From a virus, in IMG/VR virus record IMGVR_UViG_3300042861_000440, positions 1 through 29,827 of that record: a stretch of 29,827 nucleotides of DNA, one strand, 5' to 3'. The notes beneath the pieces were generated by a model. It had not been told where the DNA came from and made no database searches. It was given only the letters and a program-made list of their open reading frames with translations. The position numbers were made by a program, and so were the translations under genes. Of the stretch, positions 3,440 through 29,827 are shown piece by piece (position 1 is the first letter of the stretch; every line of letters starts with the position of its first letter).

Positions 3440-3656
3440 TGGGATCCAGTTCCCTGTCAGGCTGGATGTGGTAGGGGACAATGTGGTGGACTTCCAGCTG
3501 GTCCCTCTGTCCACATGCTTGACAGGTTTTCTGTTTTTTGAGGTGTGCAGCCCTAACACCAGCCCACTGTGGGGACCGTGGTCTGGTGCCCATCACAGGT
3601 ACTGTCGATTCAGCCCCTGTGATGGTCCCCAGCCAGTTCAATAGCTTCTGGATCAT
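3312..3656 (-). CDS. HNH endonuclease (late-arm end)
   Basis: In this 114-residue protein the HNH core is clear: zinc-knuckle Cys45/Cys48, the catalytic stretch LEVHHIVP (His57/His58), Asn74 in DPTNLLTLC, then Cys79/Cys82 and His83. HNH enzymes cut or nick DNA using one metal. Phage versions act as homing nucleases or assist packaging when next to terminase genes. This one lies far from the terminase, at the end of the leftward arm, so a homing or host-DNA-attacking role is at least as likely. The start ATG overlaps the previous stop (ATGA). Confidence 0.85.
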   Translation of the reverse strand: MIQKLLNWLGTITGAESTVPVMGTRPRSPQWAGVRAAHLKKQKTCQACGQRDQLEVHHIVPYHIQPDRELDPTNLLTLCQDCHLTWGHLRNWSSWNVMVEKDVSWYYLRVRNRP

Positions 3657-3955
3657 TGCATACCCAGCATGTGGGTCCTGATCAGTTCTGCACAGTATTC
3701 AGCCAGTGTCCGCCATGTAGAACCATCATTGTGGTCTGGGTTTTCCAGAACCACATCACAGGATTCCTCGGCTAGAACCCGTAGTGGTTTTGGATCTGGG
3801 ATTCCAGAACCATATGGAACCCTGGTTGCTTGCAGGCTGTGGGACTTAATCAACCCCATAGCCTGAACAGCCAGCACAGATGACAATGCAATCTGTGACC
3901 AGCCTTCCTGACCTCTGGAAAGTCTCCGTACGCGTTCTAAGTCTGTTGTCTGCAT
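3653..3955 (-). CDS. Hypothetical protein
   Basis: This 100-residue protein is unrecognised. ATG 3955 is chosen because AGGGGG lies 5 nt upstream; an in-frame GTG at 3958 also exists. Its first 45 residues look helical (DLERVRRLSRGQEGWSQIALSSVLAVQAMGLIKSH) and could form a small helical bundle or HTH-like fold. The C-terminal part is acidic and ends in a helix. It lies between the papain-like protease and the HNH gene. Confidence 0.6.
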   Translation of the reverse strand: MQTTDLERVRRLSRGQEGWSQIALSSVLAVQAMGLIKSHSLQATRVPYGSGIPDPKPLRVLAEESCDVVLENPDHNDGSTWRTLAEYCAELIRTHMLGMQ

Positions 3956-3964
3956 CACATCCCC

Positions 3965-4864
3965 CTACAGTGTCCAGTCAATCTGTTTGACTGGGAAACC
4001 ATCGACAGAAGAAAAGATCCAGCAATCCCCACTGGACAGCATGTACTGAATCCTGTTTGCATCTGCCCAGAATCCTTCTGGACCAGGGTTTCCCGGTCCT
4101 ACTGGTCCTGTGTGGGATGAACTGCCCCAGCTGTTGTCTATTCTTCCGTATTCCCTGTTGTTTATCACAGTGTACCCACACAGACACATGCAGTGATTCC
4201 ATGCGCCAGATGGGTCTGCTATCCCATCCTTATTTCTGGACATAGTGAATCCCTGATCAGAACACAGACTGATTCCATAGCCATTAGCCAGTGCAATCTT
4301 AGCCTGTTTCCAGTCCTTAACCGTGGTCACCTGTCGGACTGGATGCAGCCTTGCAACAGCTTCCAGACTGTCTGGGACACCATCTTTCCCCATGGTTCTG
4401 CATGTGGCTTCAGAATAGGTGGACAGGTCCAGATCCCCATACTGTCCCCGTGGAAGGATCCCCCAGTCCCGTACAAAAGTTGCTGCCCATGCACCGATGG
4501 AACCATCATTCCGCAATCTGCCCTTGCCCACTTCTACCCTACTACCACCATAGATTACCTCTGCTGCAAGTGGCTGGAACTGTTCAGGCTGTCCAGCCAC
4601 TATTTCCGCACACATGGTGTATTCAATTGCTCTAGCTGTGCCGAAAGCCACACAGGAACCCACTTTCCCCTGATTCCTTGGTGGTAGCAGTGCCCCTGTA
4701 ACCTTCCGTGCTAGGTCCCACAGATAGACCTGTGCTGGAAGATCTTCCACAGGAACCTGTCCCAGATCGGTCTGGGACAGGTCACCATAGGGAAGTGCTT
4801 CTGTGATTGCAGCTACTGCTGCATCATCCCTAATCCAGCCCCGTTCATATTCAGGTGGTGTCAT
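3965..4864 (-). CDS. Papain-like (C1A) cysteine protease, candidate lysis or host-envelope enzyme
   Basis: The 299-residue protein has a complete papain-type active site: Gln65 (oxyanion hole) and Cys71 in NQGKVGSCVAF, His224 in GAWNHCMCLCGY, and Asn244 in IDNSWG. A C-terminal strand pattern (EGFWADANRIQYML) matches the end of the fold. About 55 residues precede the catalytic domain and could be a short prosegment; no signal peptide is visible. It follows, by ATGA overlap, a secreted-type protein and a one-helix membrane protein, in the place where tailed phages usually keep the endolysin. No lysozyme, amidase or transglycosylase is recognisable elsewhere. A lysis or surface-protein-degrading role is therefore inferred. 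Confidence 0.88.
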   Translation of the reverse strand: MTPPEYERGWIRDDAAVAAITEALPYGDLSQTDLGQVPVEDLPAQVYLWDLARKVTGALLPPRNQGKVGSCVAFGTARAIEYTMCAEIVAGQPEQFQPLAAEVIYGGSRVEVGKGRLRNDGSIGAWAATFVRDWGILPRGQYGDLDLSTYSEATCRTMGKDGVPDSLEAVARLHPVRQVTTVKDWKQAKIALANGYGISLCSDQGFTMSRNKDGIADPSGAWNHCMCLCGYTVINNREYGRIDNSWGSSSHTGPVGPGNPGPEGFWADANRIQYMLSSGDCWIFSSVDGFPVKQIDWTL

Positions 4865-5511
4865 CGCAGTGATTCCAGTGCAGTGATTATGTTCTGGATT
4901 AGAACAGCACAGTCTGACCTGTGCTGTTCTGTGACAGGAACATCAGTGGTCCCCAGCACTCTGGTCCATTCTGTGCCGATCCTCTGCCTGAGAGGTAACA
5001 GGTCATTATCTTTCAGGCCAGAAGCTTTCCGCTGGGACAGCAACACCTGGTACAGCTTTTCCGTGGTGGTCAGTGTAGTGTCCCTGACCACAGGAACACA
5101 CCGGCGGTAACAGTCGATGTACTGCAACAGTTTCTGTGCTTTTGCAGGATCCTGTAACCCACCGTAGATTCCAGACAGTGCTTCTGTCAGTTCATTGTCT
5201 GGTGGTGTTGGTGGTGGTACTGGGGACTGATCCCCCACCACTATGGTGGTGATGACAGGGTCTGTGGGAATGTCACCGACAGAAGAATAGCACAGCAGTC
5301 TGTACCTACCAGATTTTCCTGCTACCACTACCGTGGACTTCGGATTGACCAACAGACCAGGTGGGAATACCTGCAAGCCTGCATCAAGTGGGACATACTT
5401 GACAGCTTTCCCCTCTGTCACAGCTGTAACTGGGATGAACCCAGACACAGGTCCCTTGATTTCTGGTGGGACTGTCAATTGACCACATAACAGAATCAGT
5501 GAAAGGATCAT
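4861..5511 (-). CDS. Putative secreted protein of the lysis-like cassette
   Basis: ATG 5511 is chosen because ATGA overlaps the previous stop, although the frame is open 13 codons further upstream. The 216-residue product begins MILSLILLCGQL, a short signal peptide or possible lipoprotein signal. A beta-rich domain of about 80 residues follows (PPEIKGPVSGFIPVTAV to VVVGD), resembling an Ig-like or fibronectin-like fold. Then come a Pro-rich hinge (PVPPPTPPD) and a helical C-terminal domain with several Cys. It is unrecognised as a family. Export and placement between a membrane protein and the protease suggest a periplasmic or envelope role such as a spanin-like or protease-partner function. 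Confidence 0.65.
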   Translation of the reverse strand: MILSLILLCGQLTVPPEIKGPVSGFIPVTAVTEGKAVKYVPLDAGLQVFPPGLLVNPKSTVVVAGKSGRYRLLCYSSVGDIPTDPVITTIVVGDQSPVPPPTPPDNELTEALSGIYGGLQDPAKAQKLLQYIDCYRRCVPVVRDTTLTTTEKLYQVLLSQRKASGLKDNDLLPLRQRIGTEWTRVLGTTDVPVTEQHRSDCAVLIQNIITALESLR

Positions 5512-5780
5512 TTTGATTCTCGCTGCAAAATGTACTGCTGTCCCCTGCAAGCTATGGTATCCATCTGCTTAACTATTGTGGCTGTGTTTTCGGCCAGTTT
5601 TTCCTGTTCTGTGTTTAGTTTTTCGAGGTGACCATCCAACTTGTCAAGAAATTTACAGTGCTGGTCCCTAACTGGGATCAGGATGTGCTGTGCAATCCAC
5701 CACATACTGGTTCCCACACCCAGCAGAATCATTCCCACCAAATAGGTGTTTGGTCCCAGTTCGCGTGCCACTTCATTCAT
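5508..5780 (-). CDS. Small membrane protein with coiled coil (holin- or Rz-like candidate)
   Basis: In this 90-residue protein, residues about 12-35 form one membrane helix (NTYLVGMILLGVGTSMWWIA). Residues 45-72 form a heptad-like coiled coil (FLDKLDGHLEKLNTEQEKLAENTATIV), followed by a short Cys-containing tail. One helix plus a coiled coil is common among small phage holin-associated and Rz-type proteins. Start and stop overlap the genes on both sides by 4 nt. Holin function is inferred from size, topology and neighbours only. Confidence 0.7.
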   Translation of the reverse strand: MNEVARELGPNTYLVGMILLGVGTSMWWIAQHILIPVRDQHCKFLDKLDGHLEKLNTEQEKLAENTATIVKQMDTIACRGQQYILQRESK

Positions 5781-7345
5781 TGTGTGTCCCCTTCTAGATC
5801 CATCCAGACTACGCTTTTGTGCAGGTAGGATACTATGTGTTTTAACCGATATTTTGACAGTGGATGCATGGTGTGGGTCAGTGCCCTATACCCTCCCAGA
5901 TAGGTGTCTGGTCCACCCACTATCTGGTGGGAATCCTGTGTCAGAATCAATCGTTTCCACTTCTTTGTCTGCTGTGCCCAGTCCAGAAATTCCACCACCA
6001 TCCTGTCAGGCCAGTGGTGCAGAACGTCCTTGCACAGTGCCCAGTCCCCAATAGGTAGGTTTTCCCTGTCCCTGAAAAAGTCCATGTGCAGCCAGATCTT
6101 TTTGGGATACAGTTCCTGTAGTTTTGTGATGTTGCTTTTGGTGCAGTCAACACCCACATAGGCCACATTTTCCAGTGCCATTCCTACTGACCCATCACCA
6201 CAGCCTAGGTCCACCACAGACCGTGGTCTGTTCCCATCAGATGACCATGCAATCAATGTGTTGATCAGGTCCACATATGGTCTAGCTTCTGTGGACACAT
6301 TGGAACCAGGTCCACTGTTCCCACCCCAGATTTTCTTGTTATAGATCAGCTCAAAAGTCTTTTCAGAATCCTTAATGTCAGACAGGAGTTCAGCGAACAT
6401 GCCGAATACTTCCTGTTCCCGTGGAAGGTTCCATTTTGGGGCACTGTAGGACTGTTTCCCTTCTGGGATGTGTTCGTGCCTGTACAGTTTCCCCTGACAC
6501 CTGTGAACCACCAGTGGCTTATCCCGTTCAATACCACAGACAAAAGCCGTGGATATCCATGGTGCAGGTCCTATGTTATGCCACAGGGACCGGTCATTCA
6601 TTGCAGCCAAAACCACCCTGTAGGTGTCCTGATCACCAAACATGTGTTTGTAGTAGAAGTCCGAATGTTGGTTCATCCAGTGGGTAATCAGCAGGGTTTT
6701 CCACAGTTTCTTCCTGTGGATTGCAAGCTGTCCACCCTGAATACCTGGTACTCCCCTGTCCCCACTGGGCCAGACGTTGGTCCACTTAACATTGTTGTAC
6801 ATACTTTCAAAATCAGACCAGAACACGAATGGTGCATTGTGTAGCTGGTTCAGCAGTGGTTCAGGGTCCCTAACAAAATACGCGTCTGCATCGATGTACA
6901 GAACACGTTCAAAACCACAGTGAACCAGTGCATACAGTTTTTGTTCCCATCCCCTTAGGATCCTGCTGGGGTTATACAGGGATGAATGCACTAGGCTGTT
7001 GATGACTTCCACACCGGGAATCTGTTTCAGCAGTGCCAGTGGTAGTGGTTCCTGATCTGGTCCCCTGTGCCACACCTGAATGGGTAGTGTGGATCCTATT
7101 TTTCTTAGCATTCGACAGGCAATCACAATACCTTCTGAAAACTTTCCCCCGCCCACAATAACCACACCATCCCCAAAACATTGTTCTGGTGGTGGTAGTA
7201 CCTGTTCTTTCATGCTGATTAGGCTGTCCAGTGCGTTGTAATGTATCTGGACAGCATCCATCCCACCAGGTTCAGCGATGTGGGGGTAATTTGTTTCAGG
7301 TCCCTGAATGGGGTCTTCCAGATTTCCGTATATCATTCTGTTCAT
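5777..7345 (-). CDS. Glycosyltransferase-methyltransferase fusion
   Basis: This is a 522-residue two-domain protein. Residues 60-320 form a GT-A glycosyltransferase with the metal-binding DxD motif (D152, D154 in VLYIDADAYF), a later GVPGIQGGQLAIHRK strand-loop and a FGDQDTYR segment. The pattern is GT8/GT71-like. Residues 335-522 form a class I SAM-dependent methyltransferase with motif I VVDLGCGDGS (378-387), an acidic end of strand 2 (YVGVD) and DVLHHW in the motif IV region. Nothing in it is secreted, so the substrate is cytoplasmic: a virion protein or a nucleotide-sugar-linked molecule. It lies just downstream of tail-tip genes, so glycosylation and methylation of a tail or adhesin protein is the favoured inference. 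Confidence 0.85.
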   Translation of the reverse strand: MNRMIYGNLEDPIQGPETNYPHIAEPGGMDAVQIHYNALDSLISMKEQVLPPPEQCFGDGVVIVGGGKFSEGIVIACRMLRKIGSTLPIQVWHRGPDQEPLPLALLKQIPGVEVINSLVHSSLYNPSRILRGWEQKLYALVHCGFERVLYIDADAYFVRDPEPLLNQLHNAPFVFWSDFESMYNNVKWTNVWPSGDRGVPGIQGGQLAIHRKKLWKTLLITHWMNQHSDFYYKHMFGDQDTYRVVLAAMNDRSLWHNIGPAPWISTAFVCGIERDKPLVVHRCQGKLYRHEHIPEGKQSYSAPKWNLPREQEVFGMFAELLSDIKDSEKTFELIYNKKIWGGNSGPGSNVSTEARPYVDLINTLIAWSSDGNRPRSVVDLGCGDGSVGMALENVAYVGVDCTKSNITKLQELYPKKIWLHMDFFRDRENLPIGDWALCKDVLHHWPDRMVVEFLDWAQQTKKWKRLILTQDSHQIVGGPDTYLGGYRALTHTMHPLSKYRLKHIVSYLHKSVVWMDLEGDTQ

Positions 7346-8164: not shown

Positions 8165-9253
8165 TTACCCAGCTATTGTGATGGTGGTTTTGGTTACAAC
8201 AATACTACCATTCACACACTGCACATCTGTTACCACCTCTATGGTATTACCTGAACCACCACCAGAAGTGGAACCTGCACCAGATTGACTACCAGCCACT
8301 GATCCAGACAGCCCTGATCCACTGACCACAGAACCACTGGCCACTGATCCAGACACATCAGATCCAGACAGCACAGATCCACTATCCACTGATCCTGACA
8401 CACCAGATCCACTGGCTATTGACCCAGAATCCACCACAGAACCGCTGGTGATGACAGAACCACTGTCTACTGATCCTGACAGCACAGACCCACTGACAGC
8501 AGATCCAGACACACCAGAACCAGACCCAGATTCAGAACCACTGATGATCAGTCCACTATCTGGTGCAGATCCTGATTCAGCAGTACAGGGGACCAGCAGG
8601 GTTTCACCAAACACAGTACCTGGTGTGGTGGGGAATGTGCAGGGTCCACAACCATCAGTACAGGTGGTGGACTGTAGTGCCCACTGAATCCCAGTCCACC
8701 AGTAGTAACAGGTTCCTGTGCAGGGAGCAGACCCACTGCTGACCACAGATCCTGACACATCAGAACCAGATCCACTGACCACAGATCCACTGATGACAGA
8801 ACCACTGGCTACAGAACCAGAATCCACCACAGAACCACTGAACACACCAGAACCACTGCCTGATTCACCAGACCCAGATCCTGAATCCCCACTGGTCACA
8901 CCTGCTACCAGCTGCACCAGGTACACAATTTGGGAATCGGCACTGTAACCAGCGAGACGGCCCAGATACCTTTTTCTGGTCAGGTCATCATTGTTCACAT
9001 CCCTGATCAGAATGTCTGAAAATTCAGTGTATGTGTTTAGTTTTGAGTCGTATTTCAGCAGTTTTCCAGCGTAGTACCCATACCCATTCTTGGTGGTACT
9101 GGTGACCAGCACAGGGTGGATGATGGGACTGGTACTGGTTTCATAGTAAACATTATCTGAATTTCTGTTAGTCAATTGGCCAGATTCAAAGTCCAACAGC
9201 ATCCTGCTGATTCTGCTGAAACTGTCACCATCGACAAGATAACCACCAGCCAT
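8165..9253 (-). CDS. Modular tail-tip or adhesin-like protein with Ser-Gly repeats
   Basis: A 362-residue protein with GAGGTG ahead of its ATG. Residues 1-118 form a mixed alpha/beta N-terminal domain (SRISRMLLDFESGQLTNRN to YLVQLVAG). Residues 121-176 and 227-335 are SGS(V/D/A)-type repeats. Between them lies a compact Cys-rich module of about 45 residues (CTGTCYYWW to LVPC, 178-223) with six Cys and many aromatics. The C-terminus (VVTDVQCVNGSIVVTKTTITI) is a beta hairpin. The flexible repeats look like tethers presenting a binding module. A structural or host-contact role is inferred from the architecture and its place after the tape measure and tail genes. Confidence 0.7.
   Translation of the reverse strand: MAGGYLVDGDSFSRISRMLLDFESGQLTNRNSDNVYYETSTSPIIHPVLVTSTTKNGYGYYAGKLLKYDSKLNTYTEFSDILIRDVNNDDLTRKRYLGRLAGYSADSQIVYLVQLVAGVTSGDSGSGSGESGSGSGVFSGSVVDSGSVASGSVISGSVVSGSGSDVSGSVVSSGSAPCTGTCYYWWTGIQWALQSTTCTDGCGPCTFPTTPGTVFGETLLVPCTAESGSAPDSGLIISGSESGSGSGVSGSAVSGSVLSGSVDSGSVITSGSVVDSGSIASGSGVSGSVDSGSVLSGSDVSGSVASGSVVSGSGLSGSVAGSQSGAGSTSGGGSGNTIEVVTDVQCVNGSIVVTKTTITIAG
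8249..8575 (-). repeat. Ser-Gly-Ser coding repeat, long block
   Basis: The minus strand encodes about 109 residues built on SGSV, SGSD, SGSG and DSGS units (residues 227-335 of the adhesin-like protein). The DNA is a degenerate repeat of about 12-15 bases dominated by GATCC, CCACTG and CCAGA on the plus strand. Such tracts change length easily by slippage or recombination. Confidence 0.85.
8726..8893 (-). repeat. Ser-Gly-Ser coding repeat, short block
   Basis: This is a shorter block with the same repeat logic, coding for residues 121-176. It is separated from the long block by the Cys-rich module. The shared units suggest expansion from a common repeat, with the module inserted or kept between two linkers. 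Confidence 0.85.
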
Positions 9254-9265
9254 GGGACACCTCTT

Positions 9266-10147
9266 TTATAGGCTGGGGAACGCGATTCTGGGGTAAACAT
9301 GGAACACCTGGTAGGTTGCAGTTTCGCTAGGCTTCCGTGCGAAACCGAATTCATCCAGATAGACTGGTGTCGAAACTATACCACCCAGAGGTGATATAAT
9401 GTCCTCGAATTCGTCCAGAACCACAGACCGTTGACGTTTCCCAACATTCGCAATAACAAAAGACCACCCATCTGGTCTGTACTCGAATACTAGTGTCCAG
9501 TGCCAGTAGGAAATACCATCCTCAAAAACCCTGTTTGCATTAACAGAATTCAATTTTGCAAGCCCTGCACCAACAGCATACGGTCCCAGAATGAAAGAAG
9601 CCTGATTCAGTTTCCCGATGGATGCTATCCATGTGGATGTGACTGGATTCAGGCTGTTCAATCCCACTGTGATGGTTGCCCCACCCTTGACTATTTCAAC
9701 AGGTGGTAGGAATGGATCACCAGCAGAATTAGCTATTTTCACCCCGAACCTGTCGAATTTCACAGCCAGTGGGTAACTGGTGGTACTGACTGTGTAATCC
9801 CGTGGACGTAGCAGTGGGTTTTCCACCCTCTCTGCTGGGTCCTGTCCATCCTGTTGGGTTTCTTGTTCTGGTGATTCATTGACTATGTATGAATACTGGA
9901 CAGTGATTCTCCACAGGTAGGGGTCACCCTGATCCTGTGTGGGTGTGATACTGGTGCAGTAGGCTTTCAGATCCTCTGGATATTTTGACCAGATTGCTGG
10001 AAGTGACGGATGACTGGCTGCATACGCTGGACCATATGCCCAGTCATTAGTCCTGACTAGGAAAACCCTGGTGTAGGTCCTCTGGTATTTCTGGTCCACA
10101 TTAGCTGTGCGACCTTCTGCCACTTCCACAAAATGTGTATATGCCAT
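9266..10147 (-). CDS. Putative tail-tip/distal tail structural protein
   Basis: This 293-residue protein sits directly downstream of the tape measure, where siphoviruses encode distal tail or baseplate proteins. It is beta-rich throughout (RRTYTRVFLVRT-like N-terminal strand, YLWRITVQYSYIV, YPLAVKFDRFGVKI, YWHWTLVFEYRPDGW) with no signal peptide. AAGGA precedes the ATG by 8 nt. It resembles conserved but unnamed phage proteins that I recall from similar genomes. Its local CpG content is somewhat higher than that of its neighbours. Confidence 0.65.
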   Translation of the reverse strand: MAYTHFVEVAEGRTANVDQKYQRTYTRVFLVRTNDWAYGPAYAASHPSLPAIWSKYPEDLKAYCTSITPTQDQGDPYLWRITVQYSYIVNESPEQETQQDGQDPAERVENPLLRPRDYTVSTTSYPLAVKFDRFGVKIANSAGDPFLPPVEIVKGGATITVGLNSLNPVTSTWIASIGKLNQASFILGPYAVGAGLAKLNSVNANRVFEDGISYWHWTLVFEYRPDGWSFVIANVGKRQRSVVLDEFEDIISPLGGIVSTPVYLDEFGFARKPSETATYQVFHVYPRIAFPSL

Positions 10148-16828: not shown

Positions 16829-17392
16829 TCAGCCCCCCGGCAGCATCAGCTGCAGTAATGTTATCCGATTCCCCCGATTCTGCAGACGCTTTTGCAGTCT
16901 GTCAGACTCCCACAGACCCAGCCCCCTGACAGCTACTGTGGTGTCAGGATAGGCTGGAATGGACACAACTGAAACTTCTAACAGTTCCAGATCAGATACA
17001 GTTCTGATTTTGGTTCCTTCTTCGACACCCCATGATTCCCCACCAGGCATGACAATAAACCCGAATGACATCTGGGACACATCACCCCGTTTGACCAGTT
17101 CCATCAGGTCTGCAGCGTAGCTGGTGGATGGTGGGTCGATGGTCACCTTTAACCCTGTACTGTCCACAGACAGTTTCAAGGTGTCATTCTGTCGGCGGCC
17201 CAAAACCATGGTGGTGTCATGGTTCACCAGTGCCCGCACATCAGACTTGCCCTTTAATGTGCGATTAAATGCCTCTGGTGCAATTCTTTCCCTGAACCCG
17301 CCCAGATCTTCAGAGAGTGGGCCAAACACGCTTGCATAGCCCACCAGCTTCCCAGCATCCAGTCCCATGGTCCCCAGTGCCCTAGTTTCCAT
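16829..17392 (-). CDS. Prohead protease (HK97 family, U35)
   Basis: A 187-residue protein with the family pattern: an N-terminal GYASVFGPLSEDLGGFRERIAPEAFNRTLKG segment, catalytic His58 in ALVNHD, catalytic Ser109 in GDVSQMSFGF, and LELLEVSVVSIPAYPDT. It matures the head by cutting the capsid delta domain. It overlaps the portal gene by 11 nt and precedes the capsid gene by 2 nt. An 18-residue basic and hydrophobic tail follows the core. Confidence 0.95.
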   Translation of the reverse strand: METRALGTMGLDAGKLVGYASVFGPLSEDLGGFRERIAPEAFNRTLKGKSDVRALVNHDTTMVLGRRQNDTLKLSVDSTGLKVTIDPPSTSYAADLMELVKRGDVSQMSFGFIVMPGGESWGVEEGTKIRTVSDLELLEVSVVSIPAYPDTTVAVRGLGLWESDRLQKRLQNRGNRITLLQLMLPGG

Positions 17393-19295
17393 CTTTTTTT
17401 TCCTCGTCTATAGAATCCATCTGATCAGACACTTTTTGAGACCATGTTTTACCTGAATCCCCACCCCATAATGCCCATGCAATTCTACCAGCACTGGGGT
17501 AACCATCCTGACCAGGTGACCATCCCTCACCTTCTTTGTCCACCTCATGCCTAGCAAAATAACTGACCATTCGACCTATAGTTTCCGGTGACACTGAAAC
17601 ACCATTAGACAAGTCCCTAGCCCTTGCCACACCTACTAATGTTCCACCTCTGTTATATTCTTTTCGCCACTTCAAGCCTAGTTCAGCCTCTTTCCTAACA
17701 CCATCAGGTGGCTTGAAATTTAGACCATCATATCTGTCTCTGATATAGACAGACCTGTTTACATCAATGGGTGACCACTTGATTCCCCAGCTGTGCTGTC
17801 CACCCGGTTCTGGTGGTGGGATCAAGACTCTCTCCCGTTCAATGCCACAGATCCTGCATCTGTTGGTGTAGCCGTGTTCGCAACTTGGGATCTGGTGGTC
17901 TGTCATATCCTGTGCCAGTTTCGCACACCATGCAGCACTGTGGATGACAGCCCCAGCATCCGTTCCAACTGAAGCAGTTGCGCTGTCTGGTGTGTCTGCT
18001 GTTGGAAGCTGTGCTGGGGCTGTGGTTGGGGCTGTGGTAACAGATGGTGCCGCTGGTGGTGCCTGTGCCCCACCAGGTCCATCCAGTGGCTGCATGTTCA
18101 ACGGTTGCAGGTATACATCCCCACCTGGTACTGGTTCTAGGTTTTCCAGTGCCCGAATTTCATTGATGCTTAACCAGCCCCAGTTTCTGCCCACAGCATA
18201 CGCTGCATACCGTGCAGCTAGGTCTGTGCGTAACAGACCCTCCACTGAATGTTCGGCATAGTAGCTGTCAGATTCAGGGGAAAGCAATTTTCTTTTGATT
18301 TCCTGTTCGATCCTGACCAGCCATGGTCTAAGGGTTTCACTAAGGAATGCAATGTTTTCCTGTTCCAGACTCGAATAAGAAACCCCACCTGTGTCCCTTA
18401 ATTTACTGGGTGGGATGTTAAACCACCTAGCCACTTCCTCTATCTGGAATTTTCTGGTCTGTAAAAACTGTGCATCATCAGGTGGGATGGATGTGGCTGT
18501 CCATTTCATCCCCTCTTCTAAAATGGCTACCCTGTGGCTGTTATCCAGTCCACTGTGCAGCCTTTCCCAGTCTCCCCTGAGTCTTCCCCTAGCATCATCA
18601 GACAGTCTACCCGGATGTTCTAACATCCCTGATGGTCTAGCCCCAGACCCAAACAGACCAGCCCCGAATTGTTCGCAAGCCATGCCCAGTCCGATGGATT
18701 CCCGTGCAAGCCTGATGGGGCTGTAGCCTGTGATCCCATCGAAACCAGGACCAGCTATGTGGAACACATCTGATGGTGCAAGCCTGACCACAGAACTACC
18801 GGGAATCTGGTATTTGTAGAACAGGTTCCCGTTGGTGTCCCTGTCTATTTTGACTAGGTCTGGTGGTAGTAGCCACAGGTTTTTAATGTTGCCGAATATG
18901 TCGCGTTCAATTTCAGCGAAACCATTACCCCATGACAAAGCATGTGCCACAATGCTTTCACGGAACTGGAATGCTGAACTCTCTGAATTAGGCTGGGTTT
19001 TGAGCAGATAGGCCACAGCAATGTCATCTATTCTGACCCTTCCACCGGGCTGTTTGTCGTAAACATGCAGTGGAAGACTTGCGATGGTTTCGCTGATGAT
19101 TCTGATTGCCTGAAACACAGGACTGTAGGTCAGTGCAGTGTCTTCTGACACAGCAACACCAGCAGTGCTGGTAGGAACCCCAAAGAAGCTGTTGAGTGCT
19201 GGGTCCCTGAGATTGGGCATACGGTTTTTAGGACTGCCTACAAAATAGGATGCAGCCCTAGTGATCGATGACATGAGCCTTTCAGCTAGGTTCAT
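17382..19295 (-). CDS. HK97-type portal protein with an extra C-terminal module
   Basis: A 637-residue protein. Residues 1-400 are a standard HK97-like portal (SPVFQAIRIISETIASLPLHVY; FRESIVAHALSWGNGFAEIERD; a stem region with RKFQIEEVARWFNIPPSKLRD; SINEIRALENLEPVPGGD). A Pro/Thr/Ala linker (405-445) follows. Next are a small Cys cluster (C472, C480, C483 in CEHGYTNRCRICGIER) and a domain of about 110 residues with GVARARDLSNGVSVSPETIGRMVSYFARHEVDKEGEGW and GYPSAGRIAWALWGGDSGKTW. I recall this last sequence from other phage head and protease proteins. Typical portals end near residue 400-430, so the fusion is notable. Confidence 0.92.
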   Translation of the reverse strand: MNLAERLMSSITRAASYFVGSPKNRMPNLRDPALNSFFGVPTSTAGVAVSEDTALTYSPVFQAIRIISETIASLPLHVYDKQPGGRVRIDDIAVAYLLKTQPNSESSAFQFRESIVAHALSWGNGFAEIERDIFGNIKNLWLLPPDLVKIDRDTNGNLFYKYQIPGSSVVRLAPSDVFHIAGPGFDGITGYSPIRLARESIGLGMACEQFGAGLFGSGARPSGMLEHPGRLSDDARGRLRGDWERLHSGLDNSHRVAILEEGMKWTATSIPPDDAQFLQTRKFQIEEVARWFNIPPSKLRDTGGVSYSSLEQENIAFLSETLRPWLVRIEQEIKRKLLSPESDSYYAEHSVEGLLRTDLAARYAAYAVGRNWGWLSINEIRALENLEPVPGGDVYLQPLNMQPLDGPGGAQAPPAAPSVTTAPTTAPAQLPTADTPDSATASVGTDAGAVIHSAAWCAKLAQDMTDHQIPSCEHGYTNRCRICGIERERVLIPPPEPGGQHSWGIKWSPIDVNRSVYIRDRYDGLNFKPPDGVRKEAELGLKWRKEYNRGGTLVGVARARDLSNGVSVSPETIGRMVSYFARHEVDKEGEGWSPGQDGYPSAGRIAWALWGGDSGKTWSQKVSDQMDSIDEEKKDGN

Positions 19296-28651: not shown

Positions 28652-29827
28652 ATGACTGTTTTTAGTACTAGCAGTAGCGCACAGCAGTTTTTTGATGATG
28701 GTTACAACATGCTACCCATCGCGTTGGATGGGAAAAAACGCCCAGCAGGGTTAGCACTCCCGAATGGGTCATGGGGACCACTACAGGACAATAGGATCAC
28801 AGCAGAGGATGTGACCAGATGGTATGGTGGAAATAACCCATACGGAATAGCTGTGATCTGTGGACACATCAGTGATAACCTGCTGGTGTTGGACTGTGAA
28901 ACAAAACAGGTCTGGGATGACATTCACAGGGACCTTTCCTGTGATCCTGAACTGTCTGAACTGGTGCAGCAGTGTACCCTGTCACAGACACCCAGTGGTG
29001 GTTACCACCTCTGGATGCATCTGGACCACCCCTGTCCACCGGGAAAGAAATTAGCACAGACCAAAACATCACCACCGAATGTGTTGGTTGAAACCCGTGG
29101 ACAGGGTCACTATATCTGTGTTCCCGGTTCACCACCCGCTGTCCATGCCCTGAACCTTCCCTACCAGTTTGTTGAGTACCACGACAGGGAGAACCGCTGT
29201 TATTGGACAGCAGATCAGGTAGACAGAATTCTGGGAATAGCTGCAAGCTATAACCAGTACACACCACCAGAGAAACTTGCACCGACACCAGCCGCTGCAC
29301 CAACAGGGGACCATGGGACTGCACCAGGTAGCCTGTTCAATGCCCATGCAAGCTGGACAGATATTCTGGAACCCCATGGATGGAAAGTGGTGGGACACCG
29401 TGGGGACAGTCTGCTGTGGTGCAGGCCCGGAAAAAGTAATGGCATCAGTGCTACCACTGGACATTGCAGCACACCTGGTAGTGGTTCCCTGTTGTATGTG
29501 TTCAGCACTTCCGCCCACCCATTCGAGGCTGACACAGCATATTCTAAGTTCGCTGCACAGACCCTACTGAACCATGGTGGGGACTTTAAGTCCTGTGCAT
29601 CTGACCTATCTGCAAAAGGCTATAGGGAAGATCAGGGACAGCCGTTCCACATCATCCTTCCGTCTGTTTCTGTGACAGCCCCAGATGGTTCCACCAAGGT
29701 TAGAAGGTATAAGTTTAGTTCAGAACTTATGTCTATAGACCCAGACATTCAGTGGTATGTCCATGGACTGATTAAACGTGGTGCATCCACCCTGTTGACT
29801 GCACACCCCAAGGTCGGGAAAACCACA
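28652..29827 (+). CDS. Primase-polymerase/helicase fusion, 5' part (runs off the right end)
   Basis: This is the first 392 codons of a gene that continues at base 1; on the circle the protein is 656 residues. Residues 1-200 look like a bifunctional primase-polymerase (PrimPol) domain. They carry the acidic pair D81/E83 after a hydrophobic strand (LLVLDCE), the SGGYH motif at 115-119 and a glycine turn at GQGHYICVPGS (150-160). A linker and small domain (200-345) lead to a RepA-type ATPase whose Walker A box (AHPKVGKTT, 384-392) begins at the window edge. The family makes primers at phage and plasmid origins. The start ATG has a GGAG sequence 8 nt upstream, just after the csrA-like gene. Priming and unwinding by one protein is inferred from the fusion. 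Confidence 0.92.
   Translation, partial: MTVFSTSSSAQQFFDDGYNMLPIALDGKKRPAGLALPNGSWGPLQDNRITAEDVTRWYGGNNPYGIAVICGHISDNLLVLDCETKQVWDDIHRDLSCDPELSELVQQCTLSQTPSGGYHLWMHLDHPCPPGKKLAQTKTSPPNVLVETRGQGHYICVPGSPPAVHALNLPYQFVEYHDRENRCYWTADQVDRILGIAASYNQYTPPEKLAPTPAAAPTGDHGTAPGSLFNAHASWTDILEPHGWKVVGHRGDSLLWCRPGKSNGISATTGHCSTPGSGSLLYVFSTSAHPFEADTAYSKFAAQTLLNHGGDFKSCASDLSAKGYREDQGQPFHIILPSVSVTAPDGSTKVRRYKFSSELMSIDPDIQWYVHGLIKRGASTLLTAHPKVGKTT
29689..29827. repeat. Terminal direct repeat, right copy
   Basis: This is the second copy of the 139-base terminal repeat. It lies inside the primase-helicase gene, which argues against a natural packaging end defined by its own site. An assembly overlap of a circular map is more likely. 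The single mismatch may be a population variant or a sequencing error. Confidence 0.95.

Follow-up and report, generated by a model that had tools for sequence, protein, structure and literature searches.

A putative lysis module built around a papain-type protease in phages of planctomycetes

Introduction

By what means would a phage leave its host if its genome held no recognisable murein hydrolase? The question is raised by a three-gene locus in a freshwater phage genome, IMG/VR record IMGVR_UViG_3300042861_000440, whose 29,827 bases were analysed at full length (hereafter the window). An earlier reading of the letters (the original prediction) saw in these genes a lysis-like cassette with a papain-type protease in place of a peptidoglycan hydrolase. 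A 139-bp direct repeat occupies both ends of the window (positions 1–139 and 29689–29827, no strand assigned). The terminal repeats indicate that the genome is complete, and the absence of a gene from it therefore carries weight.

Results

The three predicted ORFs were confirmed on the minus strand, each overlapping the next by ATGA: a small membrane protein of 90 aa (TMcc, 5508–5780), a secreted protein (SPb, 4861–5511) and a protease of 299 aa (C1A, 3965–4864). Since ATGA overlaps also join the upstream gene GT-MT to TMcc, and g7342 to GT-MT, coupling of this kind is not special to the trio. GT-MT (5777–7345, minus strand), by Pfam a fusion of a mannosyltransferase-like and a methyltransferase part, lies outside the conserved module: of the 52 sequences compared, 4 gave a match. 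Nearby, the tail region encodes a Ser/Gly-repeat protein (8165–9253), a possible target for glycosylation by GT-MT. Directly downstream of C1A lies a 101-aa ORF (3653–3958, minus strand) with a weak match to a PHROG of unknown function. It adjoins C1A in 38 of the 52 sequences, the window included, and is a possible accessory of the module.

C1A matched Pfam PF00112 (Peptidase_C1) with an E-value of 3.7e-9 and 37.4 bits, against a curated cut-off of 20.7. Its AlphaFold2 model has a papain fold (pLDDT 94.9, pTM 0.93). The best 50 PDB structure matches of the model were C1A-type proteases, with xylellain and procathepsins at the top and neither CHAP nor NlpC among them; a PDB sequence search led to the same family. 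The catalytic set named in the original prediction, Gln65 (oxyanion), Cys71, His224 and Asn244, is intact in the window. Cys71 and His224 are kept in all 42 C1A representatives, Gln65 in 41 and Asn244 in 38, the remaining four having Gln at this last position. By Pfam, site residues and modelled fold, C1A is thus a genuine member of the papain family (Peptidase C1A), with proteolysis as its predicted activity. The window protein carries neither a signal peptide nor a transmembrane segment (TM). Across the 42 representatives Pfam matched only Peptidase_C1 (28/42), bar one weak stray match; it recognised no fused wall-binding domain and no murein hydrolase domain in them, nor an inhibitory prodomain in C1A. 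A role for C1A as the prohead protease was rejected, as a separate S78 protease is encoded at 16829–17392. The C1A gene of a 92-kb phage contig (L047, 1130–3193) holds an intein-like insert (CFPAGTK...VEGIGVHN) immediately before the catalytic Cys, which serves as the +1 splice residue; the insert includes a homing-endonuclease-like region. Inteins prefer the active sites of important proteins.

TMcc consists of one N-terminal TM followed by a coiled coil, and SPb of a signal helix followed by a beta-sandwich, in keeping with the predicted one-helix coiled-coil membrane protein and signal-peptide protein with a beta domain. Like a holin, TMcc is a small TM protein encoded beside the proposed lytic enzyme, and it is linked to C1A in the loci found with TMcc as seed. 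It matched none of the described holin families: Pfam returned a weak, sub-threshold FAZ1_C match, and PHROGs gave nothing for TMcc, SPb or C1A.

The SPb ORF as listed begins at TTG 5550, with an in-frame ATG at 5511. The ATG is probably the true start, because it overlaps the TMcc stop as ATGA in the same way that the C1A ATG (4864) overlaps the SPb stop. The SPb model (pLDDT 91) comprises the signal helix, an Ig-like beta-sandwich, a Pro-rich linker and five helices; Pfam matches were at chance level. What stays constant among relatives is the helical domain. L038–L045 lack the Ig domain, and L099, L068 and L063 have a coiled coil in its place; L058, L065 and L066 have no SPb at all, and there TMcc and C1A directly adjoin. 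The idea that SPb is a chagasin-type inhibitor was rejected: the likeness is to an Ig-like fold only, with no chagasin among the PDB matches listed. The spanin label given to this gene in the original prediction found no support in the window. An o-spanin is a short, Pro-rich lipoprotein with a lipobox; the signal of the window SPb ends in ILLCGQ, without a lipobox, and the protein, at more than 200 aa, contains two folded domains. Certain relatives (L070, L071) probably have SPb as a lipoprotein.

The original prediction saw no lysozyme, amidase or transglycosylase in the window, and this was borne out by Pfam scans of its genes and by five family searches of the record, which found no peptidoglycan hydrolase. 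Whole-record searches with CHAP, Phage_lysozyme, SLT, M15_4 and NLPC_P60 were negative in 31 records (window included), as was Amidase_2 (PF01510) in the 30 related records; control searches gave matches in known genomes. Broad Pfam scans of six genomes bearing direct terminal repeats (DTRs; G004, G012, G013, G014, G016 and the window) recognised no murein hydrolase either. For the five relatives these took in most genes of at least 85 aa, with 25 of 29 families listed in one case; the PHROG scan listed 25 of 80. Pfam recognised no murein hydrolase domain in the tape measure or tail proteins, so the idea of a lysin concealed there, named at the outset as a finding that would count against the lysis reading, was rejected. 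This absence is one of recognisable profiles, and a murein hydrolase could hide among the many ORFs of unknown family.

Conservation of the module was then assessed in related sequences. As the count from the first search was biased by its protease seed, two independent seeds were added, a tail protein and TMcc. The module is conserved in more than 100 loci, which excludes chance. With the tail protein as seed (9266–10147, matches down to 42% identity), 31 loci carried C1A. A further 45 lacked it; in each, the sequence runs on for no more than 4,537 bases past the tail gene, and the longest ends inside SPb. The trio is therefore a core module, present at all 31 related tail-module loci with sufficient downstream sequence. 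No relative was found with a standard endolysin alongside the trio, nor one with such an enzyme at the module's place; this second result speaks neither for nor against functional equivalence of the two. The TMcc seed, searched with a closer subset because the 21-row alignment was too diverse as a query, returned C1A with SPb in 37 of 40 loci; the other three run off the contig.

The genes stay together under changed order. One group (L246–L257) has the order SPb-C1A-TMcc; TMcc and SPb are separated by fiber or other genes in G018 and G019. The module follows the tail genes in the window and most relatives. In L075 it lies near a portal gene, in L074 beside and upstream of a gpA-type terminase, and in L058 at the end of a series reading portal-protease-MCP-connector-closure-TMcc-C1A, without tail genes; the roles given to the small head genes of L058 are putative, read from size, order and sequence. 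Such mobility favours a lysis module over a component of the tail.

Some relatives appear to solve export differently. At 16 loci C1A has an N-terminal TM and no TMcc was found; among them are L070, a prophage in a Planctomycetia MAG, and L099, from the 45.5-kb phage G016 with its DTRs. In 39 representatives, 22 had TMcc and a C1A without its own TM, nine had a C1A with its own TM and no TMcc, eight had neither and none had both; L073 was ambiguous. Two of the eight (L049, L097) carry another small TM-plus-coil ORF nearby, and L071 and L076 small multi-TM ORFs. This pattern is suggestive of mutual exclusion between TMcc and an anchor on C1A. A tree-aware test counted two to four independent changes, with two pairs on supported branches, and the sign test was not significant. 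We do not claim true SAR release, because the anchors resemble ordinary TMs of strong hydrophobicity. A small secreted protein often follows the anchored C1A (L057:10924-11298, L061:6758-7255, L062:11049-11429, L070:10472-11011); it is possibly thioredoxin-like and might keep the protease reduced.

The hosts of the relatives are Planctomycetota, mainly Gemmataceae. Planctomycete labels were found on 24 of 25 genome loci, most of them Gemmataceae and one of them the isolate Limnoglobus roseus. The sole exception, L067, is labelled Sphingomonadaceae; mis-binning is likely, as its gene layout is identical to that of the viral contig L049. From these labels we infer a planctomycete host for the window phage as well. 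No relative was found in the annotated phage collection searched, and no isolated planctomycete phage was found described in the literature searched. The window portal protein (17382–19295) has a C-terminal extension of ~250 aa past the Pfam portal domain (residues about 386–637). Very large ORFs of about 1,600–1,900 aa occur in the structural region of relatives (G010 33150, G012 25865, G016 26862, record coordinates).

Discussion

We read the trio as a lysis (egress) module for planctomycete hosts in which a papain-type protease, as effector, replaces the murein hydrolase, and consider this probable. Support comes from its position, its obligatory and mobile linkage, the exclusion between TMcc and a C1A anchor, and some 30 related records in which no murein hydrolase was recognised. 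The lysis-cassette reading of the original prediction is partly supported, its spanin excepted. In the proposed order of events, TMcc would act like a holin, accumulating late in infection in the inner membrane and giving the leaderless C1A passage out; relatives with an N-terminal membrane anchor on C1A would not need it. SPb, exported through its own signal, would partner C1A in the periplasm, whether as chaperone, inhibitor or wall adaptor. The cell would burst once C1A had cut a load-bearing envelope protein, murein stem peptides or links between protein and murein. Lysis, this order of action, the substrate and the role of SPb are all given here as what the gene content suggests.

The host wall bears on what such a protease would cut. 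The walls of planctomycetes were for long described as proteinaceous, before murein was shown in several of them (PMC4432640); early sacculus work had reported protein (PMC5147048). The sacculi of Gemmata obscuriglobus contain murein and are attacked by lysozyme (PMC4432640). A pure protease would therefore have to act on something else or rely on host autolysins as well. Of the two wall types first suggested for the host, a protein-rich one fits the phylum, and the peptidoglycan-poor one is weakened by this murein. A bolder version of our reading, in which a whole lineage of tailed planctomycete phages gave up murein hydrolases and lyses by a papain-family protease (with a dedicated holin or its own anchor) acting on load-bearing envelope proteins, would amount to a previously unknown way of lysing bacteria; we put it forward tentatively, as a possibility.

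The same position and linkage would be expected if C1A were a true endolysin, a papain-type enzyme shifted to murein stem peptides or cross-links and serving ordinary holin-endolysin lysis as a new enzyme family. The hosts possess murein (PMC4432640), and the papain-like superfamily includes murein enzymes such as CHAP and NlpC/P60 (PMC10318531). C1A, however, belongs by sequence and fold to the true C1A branch, nearest to xylellain and the cathepsins and not to CHAP or NlpC, and lacks a fused wall-binding domain in the 42 representatives, which makes this explanation unlikely. By domain content C1A does not belong to the endolysin family, even if on our reading it would work like one.

Other rivals move the protease away from lysis altogether. 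Since the trio directly follows the tail genes in most relatives, and is coupled to them by ATGA in the window, it might be a late extension of the tail module, with C1A as a virion-associated or tail-linked entry protease that opens a protein-rich surface layer. We find this decidedly unlikely: the module leaves the tail and keeps its partners (beside the terminase in L074; with capsid genes and no tail in L058), and partners with a TM or a signal peptide indicate the host membrane rather than the virion. The trio might instead remodel the surface of the infected or lysogenic cell, by shaving receptors, excluding superinfecting phages or maturing a secreted partner. Chromosomes that encode a membrane-anchored C1A together with SPb, in some cases amid few phage genes (L057, L062), could suggest this. 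Unlike cargo genes, the trio is present in every examined member of the lineage, in which no other lysis enzyme was found, and we regard surface remodelling as very improbable. Lysis by the protease remains our preferred reading.

In the literature searched we found no precedent for lysis by C1A-type proteases and no C1A endolysin. By analogy, the nearest concept would be PeiW of a methanogen virus. PeiW and PeiP are pseudomurein endoisopeptidases of methanogen (pro)phages (PMC4592898), and as virus-borne cysteine peptidases that lyse cells with a wall other than standard murein they resemble the proposed effector. They differ in having a Cys-His-Asp triad that acts on isopeptide bonds of pseudomurein, whereas C1A is a Cys-His-Asn enzyme of the papain family, found in bacterial phages with TMcc and SPb as partners. 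Holin/SAR-endolysin cassettes (PMC7312051) likewise place a small membrane protein beside a lytic enzyme, replaced in some relatives of the window phage by an N-terminal anchor on C1A, but their enzyme is a muramidase rather than a papain-family protease. Papain, the cathepsins and xylellain (Peptidase C1A) share the fold and the Gln/Cys/His/Asn site, while the phage enzyme lacks a Pfam-recognised prodomain and has a secreted partner encoded upstream. The Rz/Rz1 spanins also pair a TM coiled-coil protein with an exported Pro-rich protein near the lysis enzyme. The window SPb, however, has folded Ig and helical domains and no lipobox, and TMcc falls short of Rz in length and disappears where C1A is self-anchored.

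If phages exit by a protease without a murein hydrolase, proteins bear load in the planctomycete envelope, and C1A would be a ready probe for which ones do. The known kinds of phage lytic enzyme would gain a protease, and TMcc, SPb and C1A would serve as gene markers for planctomycete phages in metagenomes.

Related genes also occur outside ordinary phage genomes. In Planctomycetota MAGs, a capsid-gene island without tail genes leads into TMcc and C1A (L058:4802-11137, with L055, L065 and L066; L065 shows its 3' part), and is possibly a capsid-forming satellite or a domesticated particle. A chromosomal SPb-C1A pair in L062 (6548–9222), read as a remnant or domesticated prophage, is preceded by genes for a terminase-like protein, an ABC-type ATPase and a GNAT-like protein and followed by ordinary host genes. 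As some chromosomal pairs stand in poor phage context (L057), the SPb-C1A pair may also have a cellular role.
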